The notes below the pieces were generated by a model that did not search any database, was not told the DNA's origin, and worked only from the letters and a program-made list of their open reading frames with translations. Below are positions 1 through 15,501 of a DNA stretch of 64,000 nt, one piece after another (within the stretch, counting starts at the first letter, position 1; each line of letters opens with the position of its first letter). This stretch comes from Saccharopolyspora galaxeae (lineage in GTDB: Bacteria; Actinomycetota; Actinomycetes; Mycobacteriales; Pseudonocardiaceae), in NCBI RefSeq assembly GCF_016526145.1, contig NZ_JADDUE010000005.1, forward strand, positions 1 through 64,000. The letters are read 5' to 3'. The position numbers and the translations under genes are program-made.

Positions 1-5
1 CACAC

Positions 6-63
6 AAGGACCTCCATCGTTCGGTGCGTGATGTGGTGATCCACACCGAACCTGGGGGTCCTT
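6..63. repeat. Bipartite inverted repeat at window edge
   Basis: Two nested pairs of perfect 7-bp arms form one long hairpin. AAGGACC (6-12) pairs with GGTCCTT (57-63), and TTCGGTG (20-26) pairs with CACCGAA (44-50). It lies about 60 bp beyond the ptsH stop codon in the direction of that operon, so it could end the fructose operon transcript, but no T-run follows. It could equally be the end of a mobile element lying outside the window. The arms are seen directly; the role is a guess. Confidence 0.5.
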
Positions 64-122
64 CCTATTCCAAGATCATCCAACCGCATGTTCCAAATTC
101 ACAACCTCCCGAGGCACTACAC

Positions 123-404
123 CTAGGTGGCCGCGGGTTCCTCGTCGAGGTCCCGTTCGAGCAGCGCGACCAGCTCGTCGAGCGCTTCGGCGCTTTCCGA
201 GCTCAGCTCCACCTGCTCGCCCTGCCGGGCGCCGAGCGTCATCAAGCCGAGCACGCTGCTCGCGTCGACCGGGTCGCCGGGACGATCATCGGTGACCTTC
301 GCGATGGTCACCGCGGCGGGCTGCCCGGCAGCGGCCGAAGCCAGCAGGGCGGCGGGCCGGGCGTGCAGGCCGACCGCGGCGGCGATCGTGGCGCGACGAT
401 TCAT
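123..404 (-). CDS. ptsH: Phosphocarrier protein HPr
   Basis: This is a 93-residue HPr, the small cytoplasmic protein that carries phosphate from PTS enzyme I to the sugar-specific EIIA. The active-site motif GLHARPAA places the phosphorylated histidine at His14, and the length is normal for HPr. The ATG at 404 is preceded by GAGAGG at suitable spacing. It is the last gene of the fructose operon, 59 bp after fruA. That linkage suggests it serves fructose uptake, although HPr normally serves all PTS sugars. No enzyme I gene (ptsI) is in the window, so EI must be encoded elsewhere. Confidence 0.93.
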   Translation of the reverse strand: MNRRATIAAAVGLHARPAALLASAAAGQPAAVTIAKVTDDRPGDPVDASSVLGLMTLGARQGEQVELSSESAEALDELVALLERDLDEEPAAT

Positions 405-463
405 GGAAATGCCTCTCAGTCCGTCGGTGCGAAAACCCTCGAGCTGCTTCCCGCGCAGCGAAT

Positions 464-1927
464 TCAGGCTGCGACGGCGGTTTCGGCGGCGCCGGTCCGC
501 TCGGTCCGGCGGAGCCGCTTGGCCAGCAGCACCGCCCCTGCCGCGACCACGACGCCCGCGACGATCGCACCCAGGTACGGCAACAGGTGTCCGGCGAGCG
601 GCAGCACGAACACCCCGCCGTGCGGGGCGCGCAACGTGGCACCTGCAGCCATCGACAGCGCACCCGTGGTGGCCGAGCCGAGCACGACCGGCGGGATCAC
701 GCGCAGCGGGTCGCCCGCCGCGAACGGGATCGCGCCTTCGGTGATGAACGATGCGCCCAGCAACCACGCCGTTCGACCGGCGTTGCGCTCGGCCGCGGTG
801 AACAGCTTCGCGCGCACCGCAGAGGCCAGCGCCAGCGCCAACGGCGGCACCATCCCCGCAGCCATCGCCGCGGCCATGACCTCCAGCGAGGTCTCGCTGG
901 CGATGCTCAGCCCGCCGACGGCGAAGGTGTAGGCGACCTTGTTGACCGGCCCGCCCATGTCGAACGCGATCATCGCGCCCAGCAGCGCCCCGAACAGCGC
1001 GGCGTTCGCCCCGGACAGGCCGCTGAGCCAGCCGGTCAGCCCGCTCATCGCCGCGGCGATCGGCTTGCCGACCAGCACGAACATGATCACGCCGACCAGC
1101 AGCGAGCCCAGCAGCGGCAACACCACCACCGGCATGATCCCGGCGACCGCCCGCGGCACCGGAATCCGCACCAGCGCGGCGACCACGGCACCGGCCAGCA
1201 GGCCCGCGACGAGCCCGCCGAGGAACCCGGCGCCGACGGTCACCGCGACCGCGCCGCCGACGAAACCGGGCGCGATCGCCGGGCGGTCGGCCATCGCGAA
1301 GGCGATGAAGCCGGCGAGCACCGGCACCAGGAAGTCGAACGCCTGCTGACCGATCTGGTTGGCCAGTGCCGCCCAGCTCTGCGCGCTGGCCGCGTCGAAG
1401 TGCTCGGTGACCGGTGGTGCCTCGGTGATCTGGTAGCCGCCGAGCGCGTAGCTCAGCGCGATGAGCAGTCCGCCCGCGGCCACGAACGGCAGCATGTAGC
1501 TCACGCCGGTCATCAGCCATTGGCGCAGCCGTGCGGCCGGACCTGCGCCCGCCTGCACCTTGCTGCCCAGTTCGGCTGCTCCGGAATCGTCCGGCGCCGC
1601 CGCTTCGGCGGCTTCGGGCTTGTGCTCGGCTGCCGTACCTGCGCGTTCGAGCAGACCCGCGGCGTCGTTGATGGCCTGCTTGACGCCGGCTTCGACGATC
1701 GGCTTTCCCGCGAAGCGCTCGCGGTCCCGCACGCCGACGTCAGCAGCGAAGATCACCGCGTCCGCCGCCCGCACGTCGGCCTCGGAAAGCGGGCTCGACC
1801 CGGCCGAGCCTTGCGTCTCCACCCGGATCTCGGCGCCTGCGTCCTTCGCCGCCTGCTCCAGGGCTTCGGCCGCCATGTAGGTGTGCGCGATTCCGGTGGG
1901 GCAGGCGGTGACGGCCACGAACTTCAC
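464..1927 (-). CDS. fruA: Fructose PTS permease, EIIBC component
   Basis: A 487-residue membrane permease that imports fructose and phosphorylates it to fructose 1-phosphate. Residues 1 to about 100 are the EIIB domain with the phosphocysteine motif CPTGIAHTYMAA (Cys9). An Ala/Glu-rich linker follows, then a hydrophobic EIIC domain of about 330 residues. The start is a GTG at 1927 behind AGGAGG, overlapping the IIA stop by 4 bp (GTGA), so the two are translationally coupled. EIIA is a separate protein here rather than fused, a common variant of the fructose family. Neighbouring fruK supports fructose as substrate. Confidence 0.92.
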   Translation of the reverse strand: MKFVAVTACPTGIAHTYMAAEALEQAAKDAGAEIRVETQGSAGSSPLSEADVRAADAVIFAADVGVRDRERFAGKPIVEAGVKQAINDAAGLLERAGTAAEHKPEAAEAAAPDDSGAAELGSKVQAGAGPAARLRQWLMTGVSYMLPFVAAGGLLIALSYALGGYQITEAPPVTEHFDAASAQSWAALANQIGQQAFDFLVPVLAGFIAFAMADRPAIAPGFVGGAVAVTVGAGFLGGLVAGLLAGAVVAALVRIPVPRAVAGIMPVVVLPLLGSLLVGVIMFVLVGKPIAAAMSGLTGWLSGLSGANAALFGALLGAMIAFDMGGPVNKVAYTFAVGGLSIASETSLEVMAAAMAAGMVPPLALALASAVRAKLFTAAERNAGRTAWLLGASFITEGAIPFAAGDPLRVIPPVVLGSATTGALSMAAGATLRAPHGGVFVLPLAGHLLPYLGAIVAGVVVAAGAVLLAKRLRRTERTGAAETAVAA

Positions 1928-2379
1928 GGCGAGACCTCCTGGCGCACGTACTGCGCCAGCGCCGCCGGATCGTCGGCCCGGCGCAGCGCCGTGGTGAACT
2001 CCTCGCGCACCAGCCGCCGGGCGAGCGCGGCGAGCACGGTCATGTGCTCCTCCCCGCCGCCTTCCGGCGCGGCGATGAGGAAGATCAGCGTCGCCGGGCC
2101 GTCGTCGGCGCCGAAATCGACCCCCGCGGTGCTGCGGGCGAACACCAGCGTCGGCTCGGTCACCGCGGCCGAGCGGCAGTGCGGGATGCCGATGCCGCCT
2201 TCCAGCCCGGTCGCCATCTGCTCCTCCCGGGCCCGCACATCGGCCAGGAACCGTTCGAGGTCGGTGATCCGCCCGGCGTCGACGGCCCGCTGCGCCATCG
2301 AGCGCACGGCCGCGCGCCGGTCGTCGGCCGCGAGGTCGAGGTCGACCAGGCCGGGCGTGATCAGTTCGGTGGGGGTCAT
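1924..2379 (-). CDS. Fructose-type PTS EIIA component
   Basis: A 151-residue EIIA of the fructose/mannitol family. It accepts phosphate from HPr on a histidine and passes it to the EIIB cysteine. The phosphohistidine motif GIPHC is at residues 63-68 (His67), followed by the typical TEPTLVFAR stretch and a conserved C-terminal half. It sits between fruK and fruA with 4-bp overlaps on both sides, so the three products are probably made in matched amounts. The cytoplasmic location is inferred from the absence of signal or membrane segments. Confidence 0.9.
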   Translation of the reverse strand: MTPTELITPGLVDLDLAADDRRAAVRSMAQRAVDAGRITDLERFLADVRAREEQMATGLEGGIGIPHCRSAAVTEPTLVFARSTAGVDFGADDGPATLIFLIAAPEGGGEEHMTVLAALARRLVREEFTTALRRADDPAALAQYVRQEVSP

Positions 2380-3323
2380 GCCGCCGCTCCAGTGAGGCTC
2401 AACGTCTCGTCCACTTCGTGCACCCGCACCCGTGCCGTGCGCACCTGGTGCGGGGCGGGCATCCGGGAGCCCGCCAGCCCGACCGCGGCGGTGCCGTAGG
2501 CGACCGCCGCGCGCAGGGCCGCGGGCCCGGATCCCCCCGCTCGCAGGAAACCCGCGAGCGTCGCGTCTCCCGCTCCGACGGTGCTGAGCACCGCCGGAAC
2601 CGCCCGGCTCGTCGCGTGCCAGGCTCCGCCGCGCTCCGCCAGGAGCGCCCCGTGCTCGCCGAGGCTGACCAGGACCGCCCGCACCCCGCACGCCCGGATC
2701 TCGCCAGCGGCGTCGAGCACGTCGCCGAGCCGCGGCAGCGGTCTGCCGACGTGCCCGGACAGTTCCTGCAGGTTCGGCTTGATCAGGTCCGGCCCGGCCG
2801 CGCAGGCAGCGGTCAGCGCCGCGCCGGAAGCGTCGACTGCCACGCGCGTGCCCGCGGCGCGCCCGGCGGCCACAAGCCGCGCGTGCAGGTCGTCCGCGCC
2901 GCCCGCGGGCAGGCTCCCGCAGGTGACCAGCCAATCCGCCGTTTCGGCGAGTTCGGCGGAACGCGCTTCGAGCGCGGCTTGTTCGGTCCCGGTCAGTTCC
3001 GGGCCGGGCTCGTTGAACTTGCTCGTGGTCCCGTCGGCTTCGACGACGGCGAGGTTGCTGCGGATCGACCGCGCGATCGGCACCTCGGCCACCGGGACGC
3101 CTTCGGACGTGAGCAGTTCGGCCAGCTCGGCGCCCTCGGCACCGCCGGTGGGCAGCACGGCCACGGTGCGGCTGCCCGCCGCCGCCAGCGCCCGGGCCAC
3201 GTTCACGCCCTTGCCGCCCGGGTCCAGGCGCGCGGCACCGGTGTGGTGGATCGTGCCCGGAACCAGCCGGTCCACCGCGACGGTGCGGTCCAGGCTCGGG
3301 TTCGGGGTGACGGTGACGATCAT
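2376..3323 (-). CDS. fruK: 1-phosphofructokinase
   Basis: A 315-residue PfkB-family sugar kinase that phosphorylates fructose 1-phosphate to fructose 1,6-bisphosphate, feeding imported fructose into glycolysis. The start MIVTVTPNPSLDRT and the GGKGVNVARAL segment are typical of FruK. The C-terminal PfkB signature STVGAGDATLAGF contains the catalytic aspartate. Length matches the family. It overlaps the upstream regulator stop by ATGA and the downstream IIA start by 4 bp. Tagatose-6-phosphate kinases look similar, but the PTS context favours FruK. Confidence 0.93.
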   Translation of the reverse strand: MIVTVTPNPSLDRTVAVDRLVPGTIHHTGAARLDPGGKGVNVARALAAAGSRTVAVLPTGGAEGAELAELLTSEGVPVAEVPIARSIRSNLAVVEADGTTSKFNEPGPELTGTEQAALEARSAELAETADWLVTCGSLPAGGADDLHARLVAAGRAAGTRVAVDASGAALTAACAAGPDLIKPNLQELSGHVGRPLPRLGDVLDAAGEIRACGVRAVLVSLGEHGALLAERGGAWHATSRAVPAVLSTVGAGDATLAGFLRAGGSGPAALRAAVAYGTAAVGLAGSRMPAPHQVRTARVRVHEVDETLSLTGAAA

Positions 3324-4078
3324 GCCGGGACCACTTCGGTCTCCGCGGCGAGTTCGGCGCGGGCCTCGGCGTCCAACGCCTCATCGCTCACCACGGCGTC
3401 CATCTCGCAGATCCGGGCGAAGCGGCTGAACTGGTCGTCGCCGTACTTGCTGTGGTCGGCCAGCAGCACGCGCCTGCGGCTGGCCGCGACCATCGCCGCC
3501 TTCACCGCCGCTTCGGCGGTGTCCGGCGTGGTGCATCCGCGGTGGGCGGAGAAGCCGTTGGTGCCGAAGAACCCGACGTCCACGGTCAGCCCCGCCAGCA
3601 CGTCCAGCGCCCACGACTCGACCGAGGCCAACGTGGTGCCTCGGATGCGCCCGCCGAGCATGTGCAGCGTGCAGTTGGTCCGGTTGGCGAGCTGGGTGGC
3701 CACCGGCAGCGAGTTCGTCACGACGGTGTATTCGCGATCGCTGGGCAGCAGCCCGGCCAGCCTGCCGGTGGTGGTACCCGCGTCGAGCAGCAGCGTGCCG
3801 CGCTGCGGCAGCAGGTCGACCGCGGCGCGGGCGATGCGTTCCTTCTCCGCGGCGTTGGTCTTGTCGCGCTGGGTCACGCCCGGTTCGAAGTCGATGCGGC
3901 CCACGGGGATGGCTCCGCCGTAGACGCGGCGCACCAGCCCCTGCCGTTCGAGCGCGCCGAGGTCGCGCCGGATCGTCTCCGGTGCGACCTCGAGCTCGGC
4001 CGCCGCGGCCATGACGTCGATGCGCCCGTCGCGCCGCGCCCGCTGCGCCAGCAGCTGCTGCCGCTCGGCCCCGTACAT
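3320..4078 (-). CDS. fruR: DeoR-family fructose operon regulator
   Basis: A 252-residue DeoR-family transcription factor. An N-terminal winged helix (residues 1-57) contains the family signature VAPETIRRDLGALERQGLVRR. The rest is the sugar-phosphate-sensing domain with GTTTGRLAGLL and an NSLP segment. The ATG at 4078 is chosen because GGAGGA sits 8-9 bp upstream and the DeoR alignment begins there; an upstream in-frame ATG lies inside the -35/-10 region. As first gene of its operon it probably represses it until fructose 1-phosphate accumulates, as known for other FruR/DeoR proteins. Confidence 0.87.
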   Translation of the reverse strand: MYGAERQQLLAQRARRDGRIDVMAAAAELEVAPETIRRDLGALERQGLVRRVYGGAIPVGRIDFEPGVTQRDKTNAAEKERIARAAVDLLPQRGTLLLDAGTTTGRLAGLLPSDREYTVVTNSLPVATQLANRTNCTLHMLGGRIRGTTLASVESWALDVLAGLTVDVGFFGTNGFSAHRGCTTPDTAEAAVKAAMVAASRRRVLLADHSKYGDDQFSRFARICEMDAVVSDEALDAEARAELAAETEVVPA

Positions 4079-4115
4079 GCCCGTTTTCCTCCGCTTCAAG
4101 ATTTGTTGTTGCCTG

Positions 4116-4143
4116 ATTGTGCCCTGTGTCGACATGTTGTCAA
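4116..4143 (-). promoter_or_regulatory. Promoter of the fru operon
   Basis: On the minus strand a perfect -35 box TTGACA (4143-4138) is followed after 16 bp by CACAAT (4121-4116, 4 of 6 bases of the -10 consensus). That leaves a leader of roughly 30 bases before fruR. Related ACAACA-containing segments lie in the spacer and just downstream of the -10 box, plausible half-sites for the DeoR regulator. The boxes are seen; operator assignment is inferred. Confidence 0.6.
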
Positions 4144-4404
4144 GGCTGCGCGGATGATCGACCACTCGGAGGCGGCACCTCGCGGCCGGCATCGGTTCGG
4201 TTACGTCGCTGCGGTCGTGGATCGCGGGATTTCCGTTCGGCCTCGGCGGGTCCGGGTGGTGTCGTAGACTCGCGATGATCTGTCGTGATCACGGGTGCAG
4301 TCGCGTGCGAGCGCTTGCTCAATGCGCTTTGTTCGTGCCTGTTGCCGTTGGCCGGATCGTCTGTGCGCGCCGTCTCGGCGTGGGTTCGTGTGGTGGGGGT
4401 TGCG

Positions 4405-7400
4405 ATGGCGGATTTTCCGGAGCACTTGTTCTCGCTGGGCGGGTCGCCGGAGGCGATCGCGGGTTCGGCCCGCCGGTATGACCGTTTCGGCGAGTCCGCC
4501 GCGCACGCGGCCGAGCGGATCACCGGCATGGACACCGGCCAGTTCCAGGGTCCGGAGGCGGAGCAGTTCCGGGAGAAGATCGATTCGGAGTTGCCGCCGG
4601 ACCTGCGGGTGACCGGCACGGCCTTCAGCCAGGTCGGCACGGCGCTGAACACCTTCTCGTCGCGGTTGTCGGAGCTGCAGGGCAAGATGCGACCGCTAGC
4701 GCATCAGGCGCCTGGCTTGTGGGAGCAGCTCAAGGCCAGCGAGGGTCGTGTGGAGCGGGCGGAGTCGGCCGACCGTGCTCATGCCCAGGCGGAGCGGGAG
4801 AAGGCGGCTCATGCTCCGGCCGGGCAGGCTCCGCCGCCGGGCCCTGCGTATGAGTCGGATACCGGGGACGCCTCGGCGGCGTTGTCGTCGGCGCGGGCGG
4901 CGTGGCAGGACTGCGTGGACAAGGCCAACGGCCTGCGCACCGAGATGACCGCCGCCGCCCGCGAGTGCACCAACCGCATCAACGACGCCAAAGGCATGCG
5001 GTTCAAAGAACCCCCGGCCAGCTACGACCTCATTGGGCAGGGGCAGGACTTCATCCGCGAGAACAAGGATGTGCTCAAGGAGATCTCCTCGGCGCTGAAA
5101 GTCGTCTCGGGCGCGCTCGCGGTCGTCGGTCTGGTGTTGCAGGCGATCCCGGTGGTCGGCAACGCCGTCGGCGGCGCCTTCCTCATCGCCGCCGGCATCA
5201 CCGGCGGCGCCGCGTTGGCCATCGACGCCGGTATCTACGCCGCCACCGGCGAAGGCAGCCTCACCTCGATCCTCGTCGACACCGCATTAACCGTCATCCC
5301 GTTCGGACGAGTCGCGAAACTCGGCAGCAAAGCCATCGGGGGCTTGTCGAAGGCCGCCAAGGGCCTGCGCGGCACCAAACACGCGGGTGATGCGGCGGGG
5401 TTGTCGAAGACGACCCGGGAGATGCCGCTGTGCAAGGACCCGATCGACATCGACAGCGGCCGCATGGTGATGACCCAGACCGATGTCGAACTCGGCGGGC
5501 TGCTGCCGCTGATCCTGCGCCGCACCCATCTGTCGTCGTATCGGATCGGGCTCGCGTTCGGCCCCAGCTGGGCGTCCACTTTGGACCAGCGGCTCGAGGT
5601 CGACGCCGAGGGCGTGTACTTCGCTTCCGAAGACGGGCTCGCCCTGTGCTACCCGGACCCGATGCCCGGTGTGGAGGTCTACCCGGCCGAGGGCCCGCGC
5701 TGGCCGCTGACCCGCACCGACGACGGCGGCTACACGATCACCGACGTGCCCCTGGGCCAGCAGCTGCACTTCACCCAGCACGACACCCACTGGCCGCTCA
5801 CGGCGATCACCGACCGCAACGGCCACCGCATCGACTTTCACCACGACGACACCGGATTACCCACCGAGATCGAGCACAGTGGTGGCTACCGCATCCGGAT
5901 CGAGACCACCAACCGCCTGGTGACCGCGCTGTACCTGTGCGACGCCGACAACGGTGCGGACGTGGCCCTGATGCGCTACCGCTACCACGGCGAGCGGCTC
6001 ACCGAAGTCATCAACGCCTCCGGCCAACCGTTGACGCTCGACTACGACGACGCCGGGCGCATCACGGGTTGGAGGGACCGCAACGACTGCTGGTACCGCT
6101 ACACCTACGACGCCGAGGGCAGGTGCGTGCGCACCGACGGCTCCGGCGGTTCGCTGTCGGCGACCTTCCACTACGACCTCGACAACGCGATCACCCACGT
6201 CACCGACTCCCTCGGCCACACCACCGCCTACCACCTCGACGACGACGGCCAAGTCGTCCGCGAAATCGACCCACACGGCGCCGAAACCCACTCCGAATGG
6301 GACCAACACCGCCGCCTCCTCTCCCGCACCGACCCGCTGGGCCGCACCACCAGCTACGAGTACGACGAGGACGGCAACCTCACCACGGTTCGCAGGCCGG
6401 ACGATGGCCAGGTCCGGTTGGATTACAACGAGCTACGTCAGCCGATGACCGTGGCTGCCCCGGATGGCACGGTCTCGCACCGGGAGTACGACGCCCGCGG
6501 CAACCTCGTGCGCACTGTGGATCCGGCGGGCGCGGCCACGACGTACGACTACGACGAGCGAGGGCGCCTGCTTCGCGTCACCGACGCGCTGGGCAACACC
6601 CGCCGCGTCGACACCGATGCCGCGGGCTTGCCGACCGCGATCACCGACCCGCTCGGCGCCACGACGCGCTATGAGCGGGACGCGTTCGGTCGAGTCACCG
6701 CGCTGTCGGACCCGGTCGGCGGGGTGACCCGCCTGGGCTGGACCGTTGATGGCAAACCCGCCTGGCGCACCCTGCCGGACGGGGCGACCGAGCGGTGGCT
6801 CTACGACGGCGAAGGCAACCTGCACACCCACGTCGACGCTCTCGGGCAACGCACCAGCACCGAGGTGACCCATTTCGACCTGCCCGCGGCCGAAGTCCGC
6901 CCCGACGGCACGCGCTTGGCGTTCGGCTACGACACCGAACTACGCCTGACCAACGTCACCAACGAGCAGGGCTTGGTGTGGCGCTACGACTACGACGTGG
7001 TCGGGAACTTGGCGCGGGAAACCGACTTCAACGGCCGCGTTCTCACCTACCGCCACAACGCGGCAGGCCAGCTCGTCGAGCGCACCAACGGCGCAGGCGA
7101 GACCACCACCTTCACCCGGGACCTGCTGGGCCAGGTCACCGAACGCCGCAACAGCGATGCCGTCGCCACCTTCTGCTACGACCAAGCCGGACGACTGCGC
7201 GAAGCCACCAACCCGCACGCGCGGGTGCTCTTCGACCGCGACCCGCTGGGCCGGGTGCTGGCCGAAACCATCAACGACCGCACCCTGACCTCCACCTATG
7301 ACGCGCTGGGCCGCCGCACCCGGCGAGTGACTCCGTCCGGCGCGGCAAGCGACTGGGACTACGACGCGAACGGCAACCCGACCGCGCTGCACACCGCAGG

Positions 7401-8874
7401 CCGCACCCTCCACTTCGAACACGACGCAGCCGGGCGGGAAGTTCAGCGTTCGCTCGGCGACGACGCGGTTTTGACCCAGCAGTGGGATGGCAATCACCAG
7501 CTCACCTCGCAGGCCCTCACCGGGCGCGGCGGGCGACGCATCCAGCAGCGCGCCTACAGCTATCGCGCCGACGGGTTCCTCTCCCGCATCGAGGACCAGC
7601 TTGGCGGTACCCGTACCTTCGGCTTGGACCAGGTCGGGCGCGTGACGGCGGTGCAGGGCTCCGGCTGGACCGAGCGCTACGCCTACGACGCAGCAGGCAA
7701 CATCACCGAAGGAACCTGGCCAGCTCCCACCGACTCGCCCGACTCCGAAGCACTCGGAGACCGCGAGTACAACGGCACCCTCATCCGCCGCGCGGGCAAA
7801 GTCCGCTACGAGCACGACGCCCAAGGCCGCATGACCCTGCGCCAGCAAAAACGCCTCTCCGAAAAACCCGCCACCTGGCACTACACCTGGGACACCGACG
7901 ACCGCATGACCGGCGTCACCACCCCCGACGGCACCCGCTGGCACTACCACTACGACCCACTCGGCCGCCGCATCGCCAAGCAACACCTCGGCCCAAACGA
8001 CGACGTCATCGAACGCATCGACTTCACCTGGGACGGACCCGCCCTCGCCGAACAAACCCACAAAACACGGCACAACGAAGCAAGGAACACGGTCTGGGAG
8101 TACGAGCCCGGTAGTTTTCGCCCCCTAACTCAGCATCATCGCTCCCCGCTTCGCGAAGCACCCCAGCAGTGGATCGACGAGCATTTCCACGCGATAGTCA
8201 CAGACGTGGTCGGATCCCCGTCAGAATTGGTGGACGACAAGGGTGCGGTAGCGTGGTTCCACAGGACGACGCTTTGGGGAGAACCACTCGATGAAGATGG
8301 CGGTGGTGTCACGATGCCACTGCGGTTCCCCGGCCAGTACGCAGATCGGGAAACAGCCTTCAACTACAACTACCAGCGTCACTACAGTCCCGCTTTGGGC
8401 AGGTATGCGAGCTCGGACCCGTTGGGGCTTGCGCCAGGACCGAACCCGTATCGATATGTGTTCAATCCAAACTCGGAAATCGACCCTCTTGGATTGACGC
8501 CATGCGGACTCAAGTACGTTACCTACATCAAGTCGAATCCGACAACCGGCGCAGTGTACTCCGGTCGCGCACGCGGTACTGGCGCTCCCGAGGACATCGT
8601 TGCGGCGCGGGACGCCGGGCACCACATGGATGAGCATGGATTCGGTCCGGCGCAGCTGGACAAGTTCGCCGATGCGAATTTGCCGTTCGTGCAGCGGCAC
8701 CAGGACTTGGCATACCAGATGATCAGGGGCAGGGAGCAGAATCTCATCGACTTCTTCGGTGGTGCGCAATCAGCAGGAGGGACGTCCGGGAATGCGATCC
8801 GCGGGATCGCCGAGGACAACCCGCTGCGGCAAACTTTCATGGACGCTGCGAGAGGTCAATGGGGCTTGCAGTAA
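4405..8874 (+). CDS. T7SS-type RHS/YD-repeat polymorphic toxin
   Basis: A 1489-residue polymorphic toxin. Residues 1-110 resemble the alpha-helical WXG100-like head of actinobacterial T7SS-secreted toxins. A charged coiled segment follows, then a hydrophobic stretch (about 229-305). A DUF6531-like region begins near 341 (CKDPIDIDSGRM). Dozens of YD repeats (about 500-1290) form the RHS shell, ending in the RHS-associated core (YNYQRHYSPALGRY) and the DPLGL boundary at 1360-1364. Residues 1367-1489 are the toxic tip. Its order TYI, VYSGR, GHH, GREQNLI, GNAI fits a GIY-YIG nuclease (Tyr1374, Tyr1385, Arg1388, Glu1444, Asn1463), but this is inference. ATG at 4405 follows GGTGGGGG; 40 upstream in-frame codons do not resemble the family. 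Base composition becomes visibly less GC-rich from about 8,100 onwards. Confidence 0.88.
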   Translation: MADFPEHLFSLGGSPEAIAGSARRYDRFGESAAHAAERITGMDTGQFQGPEAEQFREKIDSELPPDLRVTGTAFSQVGTALNTFSSRLSELQGKMRPLAHQAPGLWEQLKASEGRVERAESADRAHAQAEREKAAHAPAGQAPPPGPAYESDTGDASAALSSARAAWQDCVDKANGLRTEMTAAARECTNRINDAKGMRFKEPPASYDLIGQGQDFIRENKDVLKEISSALKVVSGALAVVGLVLQAIPVVGNAVGGAFLIAAGITGGAALAIDAGIYAATGEGSLTSILVDTALTVIPFGRVAKLGSKAIGGLSKAAKGLRGTKHAGDAAGLSKTTREMPLCKDPIDIDSGRMVMTQTDVELGGLLPLILRRTHLSSYRIGLAFGPSWASTLDQRLEVDAEGVYFASEDGLALCYPDPMPGVEVYPAEGPRWPLTRTDDGGYTITDVPLGQQLHFTQHDTHWPLTAITDRNGHRIDFHHDDTGLPTEIEHSGGYRIRIETTNRLVTALYLCDADNGADVALMRYRYHGERLTEVINASGQPLTLDYDDAGRITGWRDRNDCWYRYTYDAEGRCVRTDGSGGSLSATFHYDLDNAITHVTDSLGHTTAYHLDDDGQVVREIDPHGAETHSEWDQHRRLLSRTDPLGRTTSYEYDEDGNLTTVRRPDDGQVRLDYNELRQPMTVAAPDGTVSHREYDARGNLVRTVDPAGAATTYDYDERGRLLRVTDALGNTRRVDTDAAGLPTAITDPLGATTRYERDAFGRVTALSDPVGGVTRLGWTVDGKPAWRTLPDGATERWLYDGEGNLHTHVDALGQRTSTEVTHFDLPAAEVRPDGTRLAFGYDTELRLTNVTNEQGLVWRYDYDVVGNLARETDFNGRVLTYRHNAAGQLVERTNGAGETTTFTRDLLGQVTERRNSDAVATFCYDQAGRLREATNPHARVLFDRDPLGRVLAETINDRTLTSTYDALGRRTRRVTPSGAASDWDYDANGNPTALHTAGRTLHFEHDAAGREVQRSLGDDAVLTQQWDGNHQLTSQALTGRGGRRIQQRAYSYRADGFLSRIEDQLGGTRTFGLDQVGRVTAVQGSGWTERYAYDAAGNITEGTWPAPTDSPDSEALGDREYNGTLIRRAGKVRYEHDAQGRMTLRQQKRLSEKPATWHYTWDTDDRMTGVTTPDGTRWHYHYDPLGRRIAKQHLGPNDDVIERIDFTWDGPALAEQTHKTRHNEARNTVWEYEPGSFRPLTQHHRSPLREAPQQWIDEHFHAIVTDVVGSPSELVDDKGAVAWFHRTTLWGEPLDEDGGGVTMPLRFPGQYADRETAFNYNYQRHYSPALGRYASSDPLGLAPGPNPYRYVFNPNSEIDPLGLTPCGLKYVTYIKSNPTTGAVYSGRARGTGAPEDIVAARDAGHHMDEHGFGPAQLDKFADANLPFVQRHQDLAYQMIRGREQNLIDFFGGAQSAGGTSGNAIRGIAEDNPLRQTFMDAARGQWGLQ

Positions 8875-8909
8875 ACTAGGGACATCGACATTACTTGATT
8901 GGGGTGAGC

Positions 8910-9371
8910 ATGAAGCGAATATCATTCTCGCCGGGTAAGCTTTTTGAAGTTCCGGCCGGTGATGACGACCACGCCTTCGGCCTGATGCTGGAGAAATCGC
9001 CGTACTGGGCCTTCTATAACAGGCAGGCCAATTTTGATGAGGCTGGACGCCCTACCGATGACCCGATGTTCATCGTTGCAGTGGCGAAGTCGGCATACTC
9101 CTCCGGCAAGTGGGGCGAGCCGATCCGGCAGCTGCCCAACCAGGCCCTTCCGCCGATACCTCGATTTTTTCGACAGGATCCAATATCAGGCAATTGCGAT
9201 ATATTCGACCCGTCCGGAGGATCGGATGAGGGGACGTCGGCGACCCCGGAAGACTGTATCGGACTCGAGCGTTATGCAGTTTGGTCCGCGGAACATGTGG
9301 TCTCACGGATAGCTGATACTTACGCAGGCCGCCCCAATTCGTTTGCCGAATCGATGCGGGTGAAGTTCTGA
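8910..9371 (+). CDS. Immunity protein for the RHS toxin (Imm26-like)
   Basis: A 153-residue cytoplasmic protein starting 35 bp after the toxin gene, the usual place for the cognate immunity protein. The sequence resembles Imm26-type proteins as I remember them: GKLFEVPAGDDDHAFGLML near the start and a C-terminal part with EDCIGLERYAVWSAEHVV and YAGRPNSF. ATG at 8910 lies just after GGGGTGAG; a TTG at 8895 is also in frame. Codon use and GC are clearly lower than in flanking genes but like the toxin tip, so tip and immunity gene probably moved together. It should bind and block the nuclease tip. Confidence 0.75.
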   Translation: MKRISFSPGKLFEVPAGDDDHAFGLMLEKSPYWAFYNRQANFDEAGRPTDDPMFIVAVAKSAYSSGKWGEPIRQLPNQALPPIPRFFRQDPISGNCDIFDPSGGSDEGTSATPEDCIGLERYAVWSAEHVVSRIADTYAGRPNSFAESMRVKF

Positions 9372-9702
9372 CGCTTCCCGCAAAAACGAGCAATTCCGTT
9401 TCTTTCCGGAACGCCGCGAGAGCCTCCGGGGGCAGCATACGCATACCGCGAGATTTCGTTACATTCCGATAAGAACAGCAGAGGGCTGGTATTGCCAGCG
9501 ACGGAACCGACCTGCGGATATCCGATACGGCGGCTCGTGCTGGGCCGGGTGGGCGGCGACAGCCGTCGGAACCGTCGCGGGACTGGCCCGGTCGCGGATC
9601 CGACTGGAGTCCTATCGTGCTCATCGCCGACGATCCAGTGCGTTGCTTCCAGCGTTAGGTACCGGACCACCCCACCACACCAACCGCCGAGCGCCGCGTC
9701 GC
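9372..9702. other. Gene-free interval after the immunity gene
   Basis: These 331 bp separate the immunity gene from the convergent DUF574 methyltransferase. No coding frame with actinomycete codon use was found on either strand. No second immunity gene, orphan toxin tip, tRNA or clear terminator hairpin was seen. The first part has the lower GC of the toxin tip, and normal high GC returns from about 9,510. The composition boundary of the acquired cassette therefore lies inside this stretch. Confidence 0.5.
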
Positions 9703-10548
9703 TCAGGGTTTCCGGCCGATGGCGCCGATGTGCAGGGCGTGTGCCGGGTTCTGCGGGTCCGGGAAGTCCTCGTCCGGTCGCCATTGGTTGTTCGGCACCA
9801 GGCCGGGTTCGATCAGTTCGAGGCCGTCGAAGTAGTGCAACTGCTGCTCGCGGGTGCGGAAGCAGTTCGAGCCCATGCCGCCTTCGGCGAACGCGCGGGC
9901 CAGGTCGCGGGCGTGCGGCTCGCCGGTGTCGCAGGTGTTCGAGGCCATCAGGTAGCCGCCCGAGGGCAGCCGGTCGCGGATGCGGGCGGCGACGCCGTCC
10001 GGGTCCTCCTCGGCTTCGAGGTGCATGAGGATTCCGCCGAGCAGCACTGCGAACGGCTGGTCGGGGTCGATCAGCCGACGGGTCTCGGGGTCGTCGAAGA
10101 TCGCATCCGGGTCGCGCAGGTCCGCCTGGATGAGACCGGTGGTCTCGTCGGCGGGCAGCAACGCGCGCCCGTGCGCGAGCACGATCGGGTCGTTGTCGGT
10201 GTAGAGCACCCGGACTTCCGGATCGATGCGCTGCGCGACCTCGTGCACGTTGCCCGCGGTGGGCAGGCCGGAGCCGATGTCGACGAGCTGGCGGACGCCG
10301 GCCTCACCGACCAGGTACCGCACCGCCCGGCGCAGGAACGCGCGGTTGGCCTTCGCCAGCAGCGGTGTCTCCGGGACCGCCTCGAGCATCGTCCGGCACG
10401 ACTGCCGATCCGCCTCGTAGTGGTCCTTCCCGCCGAGCAGGTAGTCGTAGACCCGCGCGATCGAAGGAACGCTCGTGTCGATCTGCGACGGGACCGGCGC
10501 CCGCCCGCTGGAAAGCCGGGAAAAGACCGGGTCGCTCACGTCCACCAC
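9703..10548 (-). CDS. DUF574-family SAM-dependent methyltransferase
   Basis: A 281-residue member of the actinomycete-specific DUF574 (Methyltransf_19) family. The N-terminal hallmark IDTSVPSIARVYDYLLGGKDHY is present. A Rossmann SAM site reads LVDIGSGLPTAGNVHEVAQ (about 87-105), followed by YTDNDPIVLAHG, whose acidic residues normally bind the ribose, and a QADLRDPD motif. Streptomycetes and relatives carry many such paralogues; their substrates are mostly unknown. Two or three GTG codons are possible starts (10548, 10545, 10539) and no strong ribosome site separates them. TATGAT at 10583-10578 on the minus strand could be its -10 box. Confidence 0.88.
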   Translation of the reverse strand: MVDVSDPVFSRLSSGRAPVPSQIDTSVPSIARVYDYLLGGKDHYEADRQSCRTMLEAVPETPLLAKANRAFLRRAVRYLVGEAGVRQLVDIGSGLPTAGNVHEVAQRIDPEVRVLYTDNDPIVLAHGRALLPADETTGLIQADLRDPDAIFDDPETRRLIDPDQPFAVLLGGILMHLEAEEDPDGVAARIRDRLPSGGYLMASNTCDTGEPHARDLARAFAEGGMGSNCFRTREQQLHYFDGLELIEPGLVPNNQWRPDEDFPDPQNPAHALHIGAIGRKP

Positions 10549-10735
10549 CTGTTGCTCGTACCGCGGGCAGAGTGTCGATCATAGAACGGATCACCGCGCC
10601 GTCTCGACACTGCGTGCCACATCGCCCGAAATGCCGAGAACGACCGCCGGCGAGCAATTCGCTACCGCTCGCAGCCGGTGCCCCGGGTCGCGAGCCACCT
10701 ATCCTTGGACCAGCCGCGACGCGGGGGGTCGACAG

Positions 10736-12229
10736 GTGAGCAGCTGCCAGGACGAACCCGAGGATCCGCTGCTGGCAGGGGTCGTTCCCGCAGCGGAGCG
10801 GCGGATCTGGCTGTTGCTGGACGCCGGCCGCTTCGAGGAGGCCGAAGCCGCGTTCGACCGGATCCCGGCCGCGCCGGACGAGGCCGGATACGCCCCGGCC
10901 GTGGTCCTGGTGAACCGGGCGCTGCTGGCCGCGCGGCTGGACCGCATCCCGCGGACGATCCAGCTGGCCGCCGAAGGGTGGTCCCGGCTCGACATGGAAA
11001 GCGCAGACGACGCGAGCTCGGCGCACGCGGTCGGGATGCTCGGTTATCTGCTGGCGTCGGTGGGCAGCCACGATTCCGCGGTGGCGATGGGCACCTCGGC
11101 GGTGCGGCTCGCCCGCCGCTGCGGTGATCCCGACACCTTGGCGCACTGCCTGCTGCGCGAGGCGGGCACGCGGCTGGCCGGGTTGATCGACGACCCCGAC
11201 GCCACCCGCGCCGATTTCACCGCGGTGCAGGCGCTCTGCGAGGAATCGCTGTCGCTGGCCTCGCCGAGCCAGACCCGCCGCCGGGCGCTGACCGCGAGCG
11301 CGCGGGTGCTGGCCAGCTTGGACTCCCTGGAGGAGGCCGAGAGCCGCGCCACGCGAGCACTCGAGCTCAGCCGCCGGACGGAGGACTACTACACGCTGTC
11401 GTTCGCGAACCGCGTCCTCGTGGAGGTCCGCAAGCGCCAGGGACGCCTGCACGAAGCCAGGGCCTTCGCCGACCGGGCAGTGGACGCGGTGCAGCGCACT
11501 CGCGAATACCGGCTGTTCCGCCGGTTCTCGTGGCAGCTGGCGACGCTGCGCCGGGAGCTGGACGACCCGGCAGGCGAGGCCGCCGCGCTGCACCGCATGA
11601 TCGGGGCCGGGCGCACGACCGTGCGCGCCTTGCACGAGGGTCTCGGGCAGGCGCTGGAACAGCGCCACCTGTCCATGCGGGAGCAGCGGCGCGAAGAGGC
11701 CGCGCGGAAGGCGGCCGACCGCGACCCGCTGACCGGCCTGCTCAACCGCCGGGGCCTGGAGCACCGCGCGACGGTGCTGTTCGACCGGGCCGGGGGAACC
11801 GTCGTGCCGTGGCTGGTGCTGATCGACGTCGACCACTTCAAGGACATCAACGACCGCGCGGGACATGCCGCGGGCGATCGGACGCTGCAGGAGATGAGCA
11901 GGCTGCTGCGGCGCGAATGCCGCGATCAGGACCTGGTGTGCAGGTGGGCGGGTGACGAGTTCGTCGTGCTGGCCGTCGACAGCCGCGCGGCGGGCTGCCC
12001 ACCGGCAGGTGCGGCCGCGGCGGAACGGATCCGGCGCCGCGTCGGCGAACACGACTGGCGCGGTGTTCTCGGCGACAGCGCGGCCGGTGCGGAGGTGACC
12101 GTGAGCATCGGCGTGGCTTCCGCGGCAGGCGCGCTGCCAGACCTCGTGCAAGCTGCCGACAACGCGCTGTACCGAGCGAAGCGGGAAGGCCGGAACCGCA
12201 TCGGCACCGCCGCGCGATCCGCGGGCTGA
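10736..12229 (+). CDS. TPR-GGDEF diguanylate cyclase
   Basis: A 497-residue cytoplasmic protein that should make cyclic di-GMP from two GTP. Residues 1 to about 315 are helical repeats of TPR type, a likely sensing or docking platform. A GGDEF domain follows (about 320-490) with DRDPLTGLLNRRG and DVDHFKDIND. The active-site loop is AGDEF (405-409), a variant usually still active. The inhibitory I-site RDQD (396-399) lies exactly five residues upstream, so product feedback is expected. GTG at 10736 is chosen because GGGGGG lies 8 bp upstream. No EAL domain or transmembrane segment is present. TATCCT at 10700 may be a -10 box. Confidence 0.88.
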   Translation: MSSCQDEPEDPLLAGVVPAAERRIWLLLDAGRFEEAEAAFDRIPAAPDEAGYAPAVVLVNRALLAARLDRIPRTIQLAAEGWSRLDMESADDASSAHAVGMLGYLLASVGSHDSAVAMGTSAVRLARRCGDPDTLAHCLLREAGTRLAGLIDDPDATRADFTAVQALCEESLSLASPSQTRRRALTASARVLASLDSLEEAESRATRALELSRRTEDYYTLSFANRVLVEVRKRQGRLHEARAFADRAVDAVQRTREYRLFRRFSWQLATLRRELDDPAGEAAALHRMIGAGRTTVRALHEGLGQALEQRHLSMREQRREEAARKAADRDPLTGLLNRRGLEHRATVLFDRAGGTVVPWLVLIDVDHFKDINDRAGHAAGDRTLQEMSRLLRRECRDQDLVCRWAGDEFVVLAVDSRAAGCPPAGAAAAERIRRRVGEHDWRGVLGDSAAGAEVTVSIGVASAAGALPDLVQAADNALYRAKREGRNRIGTAARSAG

Positions 12230-12299
12230 CGCCGCGGTTTGCCGCCCGCGGCGGCGTGGGTAGCGTCGGCGCGGAACCTGCGGGAAGGAGGTCCGGGCC

Positions 12300-13142
12300 G
12301 TGTCCGCAACCCCGACGATCGCGCTGCCCTCCGGCGAGGTGATCCCGGCGCTGGGCCAGGGCACCTGGGGCTGGGCCGAGCGCCCCGAGCGCCGCGAAGG
12401 CGAGATCGATGCGCTGCACGCCGGAATCGACCTGGGCATGACGCTGGTCGACACCGCGGAGATGTACGGCGACGGCGCGGCCGAGGAACTGCTCGGTTCG
12501 GCACTCGGCGTCCGCCGCGACGAGGTCTTCCTCGTCGACAAGGTGCTGCCGCAGCACGCCACGAAGCAGGGCGTGATCGACGCCTGCGAGCGGAGCCTGC
12601 GGCGGCTGCGAACCGACCGCATCGACCTGTACCTGCTGCACTGGCGCGGCCGGACACCGCTGGAAGAAACGCTGGAGGCGTTCGCCGAGCTGGTGCGGTC
12701 CGGCCGGATCCGGTATTGGGGCGTGAGCAACTTCGACCCCGAGGACATGTCCGAGCTCGCCCGCACCCGCGGCGGCGAAGGCGTCGGCACCGACCAGGTG
12801 CTCTACAACCTCACCCGCCGCGGCGTCGAGTACGACCTGCTGCCGTGGTGCAGGCAGCGCGAGTTGCCGGTGATGGCCTACTCCCCGATCGAACAGGGCC
12901 GGATGCTGGATTCGCCCGCGCTGCGGCAGGTGGCCGAGCGCCACGACGCGAGCCCCGCGCAGATCGGGCTGGCCTGGCTGCTGCGCAACGAGGGCGTCTG
13001 CGCCATCCCGCGCGCGAGCAGCCGGGCGCACGTGCAGGAGAACCACGCGGCGCTGCGGTTGCGGCTGTCCGAACAGGACTTCGCCGAACTCGACGAGGCG
13101 TTCCCGCCGCCGACGAGCCCGCAGCCGCTCGAAGTGCTCTGA
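12300..13142 (+). CDS. Aldo/keto reductase
   Basis: A 280-residue NADPH-dependent aldo/keto reductase with the TIM-barrel fold, reducing aldehydes or ketones in the cytoplasm. The catalytic tetrad is visible: Asp51 and Tyr56 in VDTAEMYGDG, Lys81 in LVDKVLP and His114 in LYLLHWRG. The second signature is present around GVSNFDPEDM. The C-terminal cofactor region reads AIPRASSRAHVQENHAAL. GTG at 12300 follows the very strong site GGAAGGAGG. Its substrate cannot be read from the sequence. It lies 70 bp after the GGDEF gene and before a DJ-1-like gene, so a detoxification or redox-stress role is possible. Confidence 0.9.
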   Translation: MSATPTIALPSGEVIPALGQGTWGWAERPERREGEIDALHAGIDLGMTLVDTAEMYGDGAAEELLGSALGVRRDEVFLVDKVLPQHATKQGVIDACERSLRRLRTDRIDLYLLHWRGRTPLEETLEAFAELVRSGRIRYWGVSNFDPEDMSELARTRGGEGVGTDQVLYNLTRRGVEYDLLPWCRQRELPVMAYSPIEQGRMLDSPALRQVAERHDASPAQIGLAWLLRNEGVCAIPRASSRAHVQENHAALRLRLSEQDFAELDEAFPPPTSPQPLEVL

Positions 13143-13265
13143 GAACCCGAACCGGCTCTCCGCGACGGGTTTGCACCACCCGGCGCTGGGGAATGTTCGC
13201 GCGCGGAAAGCACTCGCCGATCAGTACCGGCGAGGCGACGACCGAACTTGAACGAGGACTCCAAC

Positions 13266-13961
13266 ATGGCCAACACCAACCGGGTACTGATCATCGTCAC
13301 GAGCGTCGGCGAGTACGAGAAGGCCGGATTCCGCACCGGGCTGTGGCTCGGCGAGCTCACCCACTTCTACGACGTGGTCGAACAGGCCGGATACGAACCC
13401 GTCATCGCCAGCATCGCGGGCGGACATGTGCCCATCGACCCGGAAAGCCTGTCCCACGACGTGCTCGGCGAGCTGGGCACCGACCGGCGCTACGCCGACC
13501 GGCAGTTCATGGACCAGCTGCGCGAGACCAGGTCCGTGGCCGAGGTCGACCCGGCCCACTACGACGCGATCTATCTCACCGGCGGCCACGGGGTGATGTT
13601 CGACTTCGCCCAGAGCGACCGGCTGGCCGGGCTGCTGCGGGAGTTCCACGAGTCCGGCAAGGTCGTCTCCGCGGTCTGCCACGGCCCGTGCGGGCTGCTC
13701 GGCGCGCAGCTTTCCGACGGGCGGTACCTGGTCGACGGCAAGGACGTCACCGGCTTCTCATGGCCGGAGGAAGAACTGGCGCAACGCGACCGGGCCGTGC
13801 CCTACAGCCTGCAGGACGAGCTCAAGCAGCGGGGCGCCGAGTATTCGACGGCCGAGCAGCCCTTCGCCACGTACGTTCGCGAGGACGACCGGTTGATCAC
13901 CGGCCAGAACCCCGGTAGCGCCAAGGCCGTCGCCGAGGCCGTGGTCGCCAAGCTGCGCTGA
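13266..13961 (+). CDS. DJ-1/PfpI-family (Hsp31-like) protein
   Basis: A 231-residue protein of the DJ-1/PfpI superfamily, class I glutamine amidotransferase-like fold. The nucleophile elbow SAVCHGPCGLL holds the reactive cysteine (Cys138), and YLTGGHGVMFDF and DVTGFSWPEEE match Hsp31-like proteins. Known members act as glyoxalase III (methylglyoxal to lactate), deglycase or chaperone; which applies here is not decidable from sequence. ATG at 13266 follows CGAGGA; a TTG 18 bp upstream is in frame but lacks a site. With the upstream aldo/keto reductase it may form a small reactive-aldehyde defence set (inference). Confidence 0.86.
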   Translation: MANTNRVLIIVTSVGEYEKAGFRTGLWLGELTHFYDVVEQAGYEPVIASIAGGHVPIDPESLSHDVLGELGTDRRYADRQFMDQLRETRSVAEVDPAHYDAIYLTGGHGVMFDFAQSDRLAGLLREFHESGKVVSAVCHGPCGLLGAQLSDGRYLVDGKDVTGFSWPEEELAQRDRAVPYSLQDELKQRGAEYSTAEQPFATYVREDDRLITGQNPGSAKAVAEAVVAKLR

Positions 13962-14062
13962 CCGCGGTCGCATCGGCGCCGCGCGAGTTAGTCGATCCCC
14001 GCCGCGGGACACCCTCGGCACGGGAGCGGCCGTGCTGCCCGGCCGCCGCCGGAAGGAGGGGG

Positions 14063-14119
14063 ATGGGCGGGTTCAGCGAACGCCGGCGACGCTTCCGGCG
14101 GTGCGGGGTGCGTCCGTGA
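14063..14119 (+). CDS. Arg-rich leader ORF overlapping cydA start
   Basis: An 18-codon ORF reading MGGFSERRRRFRRCGVRP. Its ATG follows one of the strongest ribosome sites in the window (GGAAGGAGGGGG), which has no other gene to serve in that frame. Its TGA (14117-14119) overlaps the GTG at 14116 that best fits the cydA start, a GTGA coupling like the one between cydA and cydB. Seven of 18 residues are arginine. It may be a leader peptide coupling translation to cydA or tuning it to ribosome speed. Codon evidence is impossible at this length, so the call rests on the ribosome site and the overlap. Confidence 0.45.
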   Translation: MGGFSERRRRFRRCGVRP

Positions 14120-15501
14120 GCGCGGCGGAGGCCGTGAGCGCGGCGGTGCCGGGCACCCCGGCGCAGGCCGCGGTCCTCGCGGTGGCGCACTCCCCCGCCG
14201 ATCTGGCCGCGGCCCGCACGCAGATGGGGTTCTCGCTCGGCTGGCACATCGTGATCGCCTGCTTCGGGGTGGGGATGCCCGCGATCACGCTCATCGCCGA
14301 ATGGCGCGGTCACCGCTACGACGACCCCACCTACCGCCTGCTCGCGCACCGGTGGGCCAGGGCGATGGGTGTGCTGTTCGCCGTGGGAGCGGTCTCCGGC
14401 ACCATCCTGAGCTTCGAGATGGGGCTGCTGTGGCCGGGGATGATGTACACCTACGGCGAAGTCATCGGGCTGCCGTTCACCCTCGAGGGGTTCGCGTTCT
14501 TCATCGAGGCGATCTTCCTCGGGATCTACCTGTACGCGTGGGACCGGTTGCCGCCCCGCGTGCACATGCTCACCGCCGTCCCGATCTGCATCGCCGGGGT
14601 CGCCTCGGCGTTCTTCGTGGTCACCGCGAACGCCTGGATGAACCAGCCGCGCGGGTTCGACGTCGACGACGGCCGGGTCGTGCAGGTCGACCCGTGGGCG
14701 GCGATGTTCAACCCGGCCGCCTGGCCGCAGACCGTGCACATGATCATCGCCGCGTTCATGGTGGCGGGTTTCGGCATGGCCGCCGTCTACGCGGTGGCGA
14801 TCCTGCGCGGCCGAAACGACCGCTACCACCGGCTGGGTTTCCGGCTGCCGTTCACCGTGGGCGCCGTGCTCGCCCCGGTGCAGATCGGAGTCGGTGACTG
14901 GGCGGCGAAGTTCCTCGCGACGAACCAGCCCGCGAAGCTCGCCGCGATCGAGGGCGTGTACCGCACGGCCAGCGGAGTCCCGCTGCACGTCGGCGGGGTC
15001 TACCGCGACGGCGAGATGCACTACGCGCTGGAGATCCCCGACGGGCTGTCGCTGCTGGCGCACTGGGATCCGGGCGCCACGATCATCGGGCTCGCGGAGT
15101 TCCCAGCGGCCGACCGCCCGCCGGTCAACATCGTGCACTGGTCGTTCCAGATCATGGTGGCGATCGGGTTCGCGTTGCTGGCGCTCGGGGTCTGGTTCGC
15201 GATCACCTGGTGGCGGCGCCGGAACCTGCCGCGTTCGAGCTGGTTCTTCGCGGGCGCGGCCCTCGCCGGGGTGGCCGCCCCGATCGCGGTGGAATCCGGG
15301 TGGATCACCACCGAGGTCGGCAGGCAGCCGTGGATCGTGTGGGGCCACATGCGCACCGAGGACGCCGTTTCGCCGGTGCCGGGTCTCGTGGTGGGGCTGC
15401 TGGCGGTGCTGGCGGTCTACCTGGTGCTCACGATCACCAGCGTGTACGTGCTGCGCAGGCTGGCGAAGGTGCCGCTGGCGCAGGACGAGGACGTGCCGTG
15501 A
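14116..15501 (+). CDS. cydA: Cytochrome bd ubiquinol/menaquinol oxidase subunit I
   Basis: A 461-residue membrane subunit of cytochrome bd oxidase, which oxidises quinol and reduces oxygen to water with high affinity. The N-terminal segment QMGFSLGWHIVIACFG carries His44, the expected high-spin haem ligand. Nine or so membrane helices, the conserved GRQPWIVWGHMRT segment and a short Q-loop typical of actinobacteria are visible. GTG at 14116 overlaps the stop of a leader ORF; another GTG at 14032 has a fair site (GGGAG), so 28 more residues are possible. cydB overlaps by 4 bp. The cydDC exporter genes needed for assembly are not in the window. Confidence 0.92.
   Translation: MSAAEAVSAAVPGTPAQAAVLAVAHSPADLAAARTQMGFSLGWHIVIACFGVGMPAITLIAEWRGHRYDDPTYRLLAHRWARAMGVLFAVGAVSGTILSFEMGLLWPGMMYTYGEVIGLPFTLEGFAFFIEAIFLGIYLYAWDRLPPRVHMLTAVPICIAGVASAFFVVTANAWMNQPRGFDVDDGRVVQVDPWAAMFNPAAWPQTVHMIIAAFMVAGFGMAAVYAVAILRGRNDRYHRLGFRLPFTVGAVLAPVQIGVGDWAAKFLATNQPAKLAAIEGVYRTASGVPLHVGGVYRDGEMHYALEIPDGLSLLAHWDPGATIIGLAEFPAADRPPVNIVHWSFQIMVAIGFALLALGVWFAITWWRRRNLPRSSWFFAGAALAGVAAPIAVESGWITTEVGRQPWIVWGHMRTEDAVSPVPGLVVGLLAVLAVYLVLTITSVYVLRRLAKVPLAQDEDVP

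Follow-up and report, generated by a model that had tools for sequence, protein, structure and literature searches.

Among described toxins, the closest counterpart of the system considered here is Tox-URI1, which in Zhang et al. 2012 (PMC3482391) is defined by the motif Y, YxG, R, [RK]xxE, N, is borne mainly by RHS-type carriers, and is partnered by Imm14, Imm26, Imm44 or Imm51. Two effectors of Yersinia pseudotuberculosis are near it in kind: TepC, a deoxyribonuclease (DNase) effector whose immunity protein TipC has an Imm26 domain (PMC10833071), and TkeA, an Rhs DNase effector assigned to GIY-YIG by motif search (PMC12302616). The carrier resembles LrhA, an Rhs toxin of the Listeria type VII secretion system (T7SS) of subtype b, which has DUF6531 and RHS repeats, a variable tip, and a gene located near a T7SS ATPase gene (PMC10327511). 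Here we describe an RHS toxin gene and the gene behind it in the first 64,000 nucleotides (positions 1 to 64,000, forward strand; "the window") of contig NZ_JADDUE010000005.1 from Saccharopolyspora galaxeae (GCF_016526145.1). The evidence supports a toxin tip of Tox-URI1 type, a GIY-YIG-like nuclease with probable Imm26-type immunity, carried by an RHS chassis with T7SS links. Weapons of this kind are known, but this version has seldom been catalogued.

The toxin gene (4405..8874, + strand, as are all genes, domains and residues of the window located below) runs from an ATG at 4405 to a stop codon ending at 8874 and encodes 1489 residues; in the list of open reading frames (ORFs), a longer version beginning with GTG at 4285 is also open. 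The intact T7SS-like head, DUF6531 region, YD repeats, core and DPLGL boundary claimed in the original prediction were all recovered, through motif positions and profile matches above the respective cut-offs: the T7SS_signal head PF21725 at 4441..4935 (residues 13-177; 33.5 bits, cut-off 27), DUF6531 PF20148 at 5437..5643 (residues 345-413; 62.8 bits, cut-off 24.1), a YD/RHS-repeat shell at 5644..8271 (array limits approximate; the protein holds 18 RHS_repeat stretches), and the RHS-associated core TIGR03696 at 8272..8496 (residues 1290-1364; 68.8 bits, cut-off 32.5). DPLGL occurs twice, at residues 1338-1342 and 1360-1364, the second copy forming the end of the core. In RHS/TcC proteins the tip is cleaved behind the core motif, and by analogy the second DPLGL is the presumed cleavage site. 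The last 125 residues (1365-1489; 8497..8871) constitute the tip, a Tox-URI1-type GIY-YIG-like domain.

To the T7SS_signal head the genome adds four EccC-type ORFs scoring above the family cut-off, features expected of a T7SS (ESX) substrate, which make this the most likely route of export as judged from sequence. The Rhs core was matched at four places in the same genome, and two paralogues align to residues 1-1367 and 1-1366 of the toxin with 82% and 74% identity, the alignments stopping there and the tips differing. One of these two paralogues (L127:3043-11822) lies less than 0.2 kb behind an eccC-like ORF on the same strand, that ORF being among the four of EccC type; its different tip gave no Pfam match above cut-off, the tip examined being that of the counterpart L178. 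Unlike LrhA, whose system is the T7SSb of Bacillota (PMC10327511), the toxin has EccC-type ATPases in its genome, with linkage seen for a paralogue only.

Profile searches matched the tip to no Pfam or NCBIfam model. Relatives were nevertheless retrieved in two ways. Eight of 72,556 plasmid records matched by tblastn (Aliiroseovarius 4, Vibrio 2, Paenibacillus 1, Ensifer 1), and a genome collection scanned with a pattern from a six-row alignment, taken from the stretch around Glu1444, yielded 93 matches, 78 of which encode tip relatives. Their hosts belong to Actinomycetota, Bacteroidota, Bacillota, Spirochaetota, Planctomycetota, Gemmatimonadota, Pseudomonadota and other groups. An alignment of 60 tips (A2) comprised P0001 and 59 of the 78 genome tips, leaving out 11 that were partial, cut or odd, and another 8 because they were near copies, had long inserts or exceeded the list length. 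Against a profile of 51 non-actinobacterial tips the window tip reached 128.7 bits, the best of 2000 shuffles 9.2.

Six residues are unchanged in all 60 aligned tips: Tyr1374, the GIY-type Tyr (8524..8526); Tyr1385, the Tyr of YxG (8557..8559); Gly1387; Arg1402, the presumed catalytic Arg (8608..8610); Glu1444, the presumed metal ligand (8734..8736); and Asn1463 (8791..8793). The invariance of Glu1444 is biased, since the stretch surrounding it, Arg1441-Glu1444 included, was the scan pattern; the other residues lie outside that pattern. His1406 (8620..8622) is His in 52 of the 60. With Arg1441-x-x-Glu1444 and Tyr1385-x-Gly1387, this series reproduces the Tox-URI1 motif throughout the alignment. 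The short motifs reported earlier for the tip, TYI, VYSGR, GHH, GREQNLI and GNAI, do occur in that order (at 1373, 1384, 1405, 1442 and 1462), and Tyr1385 and Glu1444 had been numbered correctly. The proposed GIY-YIG succession of Tyr, Tyr, Arg, Glu and Asn was upheld by the invariant residues except in its choice of Arg: the Arg of VYSGR is kept in 57 of 60 tips, Arg1402, four residues before His1406, in all 60, and we prefer the latter as the catalytic residue.

The carrier and the partner, Imm26 being one of Imm14, 26, 44 and 51, likewise fit the description of Tox-URI1. In the original prediction this exact tip was not connected with a named toxin family, which holds only in part: no profile library searched covers Tox-URI1, but motif, partner and carrier all fit the published type (PMC3482391). 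This likeness is drawn from the published description, and there are differences: the export routes listed for Tox-URI1 omit T7SS, and the relatives retrieved here include a second, unnamed partner family. TepC/TipC and TkeA/TkiA, also likened by description, share with the present pair the type of an antibacterial nuclease effector with an adjacent immunity gene; unlike the RHS tip, TepC and TkeA are effectors of the type VI secretion system, and for TkeA the critical residue is reported to be an Asp (PMC10833071, PMC12302616). We found no paper devoted to the tip or to its helical partner in a literature search that covered few subscription journals.

The order beta-beta-alpha-beta-alpha is that of the GIY-YIG family core, and the model predicted for the tip has this same order of strands and helices at a confidence (pLDDT) of 97. 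When the model was compared with known structures using VIA-align, all five top entries were I-TevI or PD-T4-3, the latter of which we take to be a GIY-YIG enzyme, and the first unrelated entry followed at 3.9. The tip profile further aligned with a GIY-YIG profile in catalytic register, which none of 100 column shuffles did as well. A GIY-YIG-like fold is thus predicted for the tip with high model confidence, and profile comparison also favors the divergent GIY-YIG domain first proposed. We do not file the tip as a member of PF01541, since it gave no match to that GIY-YIG profile at the gathering cut-off. It also differs from the I-TevI catalytic domain (PDB 1ln0, 1mk0), to which it has 16% identity and which is part of an enzyme for intron homing rather than of a toxin.

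Immediately downstream lies the probable immunity gene, of Imm26 type (8910..9371; 153 residues), with its ATG 35 bp past the toxin stop, the distance given in the original prediction. The resemblance to Imm26 claimed there holds through bridging sequences: the partner scored 113 bits against a profile built on 34 others, none of them from Actinomycetota (best of 2000 shuffles, 6.2), and 37 of the 42 rows of the partner alignment (A3; P0002 with 41 of 45 Imm26-like partners) match PF15428 at E <= 0.01. An Imm26-like gene stands behind the tip at 45 of the 78 related genome loci, a count that leans towards assignment because the partner profiles were trained on the same loci. Six of the eight matching plasmid records were inspected, and in five the next gene is annotated as Imm26, Ensifer being the exception.

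All six genomes of the genus that were searched contain the chassis (16 matches). The tip was found in 1 of 60 genomes of a set of relatives, and when 396 genomes sampled from the phylum were searched, a single one had an Imm26-like gene; the sole genome in both cases is that of the window. In a genome of the same species, G710, one copy (L179) occupies the same locus, and blastn aligned window positions 122-8036 at 93.5% and 9700-15005 at 99.3%. Identity in 250-base bins is 0.96-1.00 over 250-6250, falls to 0.68-0.80 up to 8000, 0.57-0.59 up to 8500 and 0.26-0.35 up to 9500, and returns to 0.98-1.00 over 9750-15000. The region exchanged, with approximate limits 6250..9700, thus extends over the 3' half of the toxin gene, including its tip, and over the gene that follows. 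In the other allele the tip is Ntox21 (60.6 bits against a cut-off of 25), and the small gene behind it matches no Pfam family. Such joint variation of 3' RHS half, tip and following gene between two genomes is what recombinational exchange of a polymorphic toxin would be expected to produce, and together with the chassis paralogues this tip swap displays the conserved chassis and varied tips behind DPxGL that characterize RHS polymorphic toxins.

We consider it likely that the gene encodes an RHS toxin used between bacteria, whose Tox-URI1-type GIY-YIG tip cuts DNA and is blocked by the downstream Imm26 protein. In this scheme the protein would be exported, most likely by the type VII (ESX) system, with the tip held inside the YD-repeat shell and probably released by a cut behind the second DPLGL; the tip would then cut the DNA of the target cell with a metal ion by means of Tyr1374, Tyr1385, Arg1402, Glu1444 and Asn1463, while the Imm26 protein encoded 35 bp downstream would block it by binding. 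The reading is supported by the domains, the 78 relatives with their invariant residues, the tip model and its top VIA-align entries, the register of the profiles, the Imm26-like linkage, the T7SS_signal head and EccC-type ORFs, the chassis paralogue directly behind one of those ORFs, and the tip swap, and because both the Tox-URI1/Imm26 pairing and the DNase effectors TkeA and TepC are on record (PMC3482391, PMC12302616, PMC10833071). Several results weigh on the other side. VIA-align Z values for the tip stay below 8, where the tool warns of a merely common arrangement; Foldseek found no match for the model at E <= 0.001, ranking I-TevI 19th with E 1.1; and PF01541 touches just 3 of the 60 tips (best E 0.065), unrelated families scoring equally or better. 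The partner itself attains 12.3 bits against PF15428, under the cut-off of 23.3, so that it is homologous to members of that family only and not a hit to it, and its predicted model consists mostly of strands, while a table in Zhang et al. has Imm26 mostly alpha (PMC3482391). No T7SS gene was seen beside the RHS copy within positions 1-14000 of the window. Finally, 24 of the 78 related loci have a different partner and 9 have neither, counts that lean towards assignment in the same way as the 45.

That the Tyr, Arg, Glu and Asn fell into order by coincidence, on an unrelated small alpha/beta fold with another activity, is quite improbable, given that the best five VIA-align entries are all I-TevI or PD-T4-3 and rank above the first unrelated one, that the residues are invariant and correctly ordered and spaced, and that the motif equals the one published for Tox-URI1 (PMC3482391). 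The same toxin and fold might act chiefly on RNA such as tRNA or rRNA. DNA and RNA are both noted as possible substrates of metal-dependent toxin nucleases (PMC3482391), the GIY-YIG domain is glossed as an endoribonuclease in a survey of Bacteroidetes toxins, and a paper on Salmonella reads Imm26 as an indication of RNase activity. Since TkeA, GIY-YIG by motif, and TepC, with its Imm26 partner, are both reported as DNases (PMC12302616, PMC10833071), we nonetheless regard RNA as an unlikely main target. I-TevI, moreover, is a DNA endonuclease.

A eukaryotic target, whether insect or other host, could be read from the SpvB/TcaC-type carriers of two plasmid relatives and from the reported activity of TkeA on mammalian cells as well as bacteria (PMC12302616). 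The tip has, however, retained an immunity-type neighbor here and an Imm26-like one at 45 of the 78 related loci, and tip and next gene differ jointly between genomes of one species, which fits rivalry among bacteria; we give use against eukaryotes very little credence.

The loci without Imm26 disclose a further feature of the family. In 24 of the 78, an unnamed and probably helical family takes the place of Imm26 behind the related tip (L034, L038, L044-L046, L049, L052-L055, L058-L061, L064-L066, L068, L071, L072, L076, L080, L086, L087); this family, of which 21 of the 24 members were aligned (A5), has no relative beyond chance in Pfam, NCBIfam or PDB. At two of the nine partnerless loci (L070, L081) a contig end truncates the sequence. 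On a tree of 64 tips, from which partnerless rows and two long-branch rows were excluded, three partner changes are needed, two of them forced by well-supported branches. Our first reading of the tip tree, several independent changes of partner, was dropped because the hypothesis that the helical type arose once was not rejected (p-AU 0.10). We see about an even chance that the tip typifies a widespread GIY-YIG toxin clade that the searched profile libraries lack, that its constant active site is opposed by two dedicated immunity families unrelated to each other, Imm26 and the probably helical one, the latter having replaced the former at least once, and that in the window's species the immunity gene is exchanged together with the tip and the 3' RHS half at a fixed locus. 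If the second family does confer immunity, one nuclease fold faces two unrelated neutralizing proteins that can be compared directly. The analysis also supplies a testable mechanism for a tip that is blank in Pfam and NCBIfam, connects it with no fewer than 78 further tips, and offers in the same-species tip swap a ready system for studying the diversification of T7SS-linked RHS toxins.

Two other arrangements of the tip domain were encountered. Short stand-alone ORFs of Bacteroidota (L069:5992-6366, L073:2519-2890, L074:5998-6354, L075:2111-2449) consist of the tip domain and a hydrophobic C-terminal stretch, and are accompanied by neither an Imm26-like nor a helical partner gene. On an Aliiroseovarius plasmid (L009:2300-3198), a tip remnant lacking its N-terminal half precedes an intact Imm26-type gene, which is likely an orphan immunity gene.
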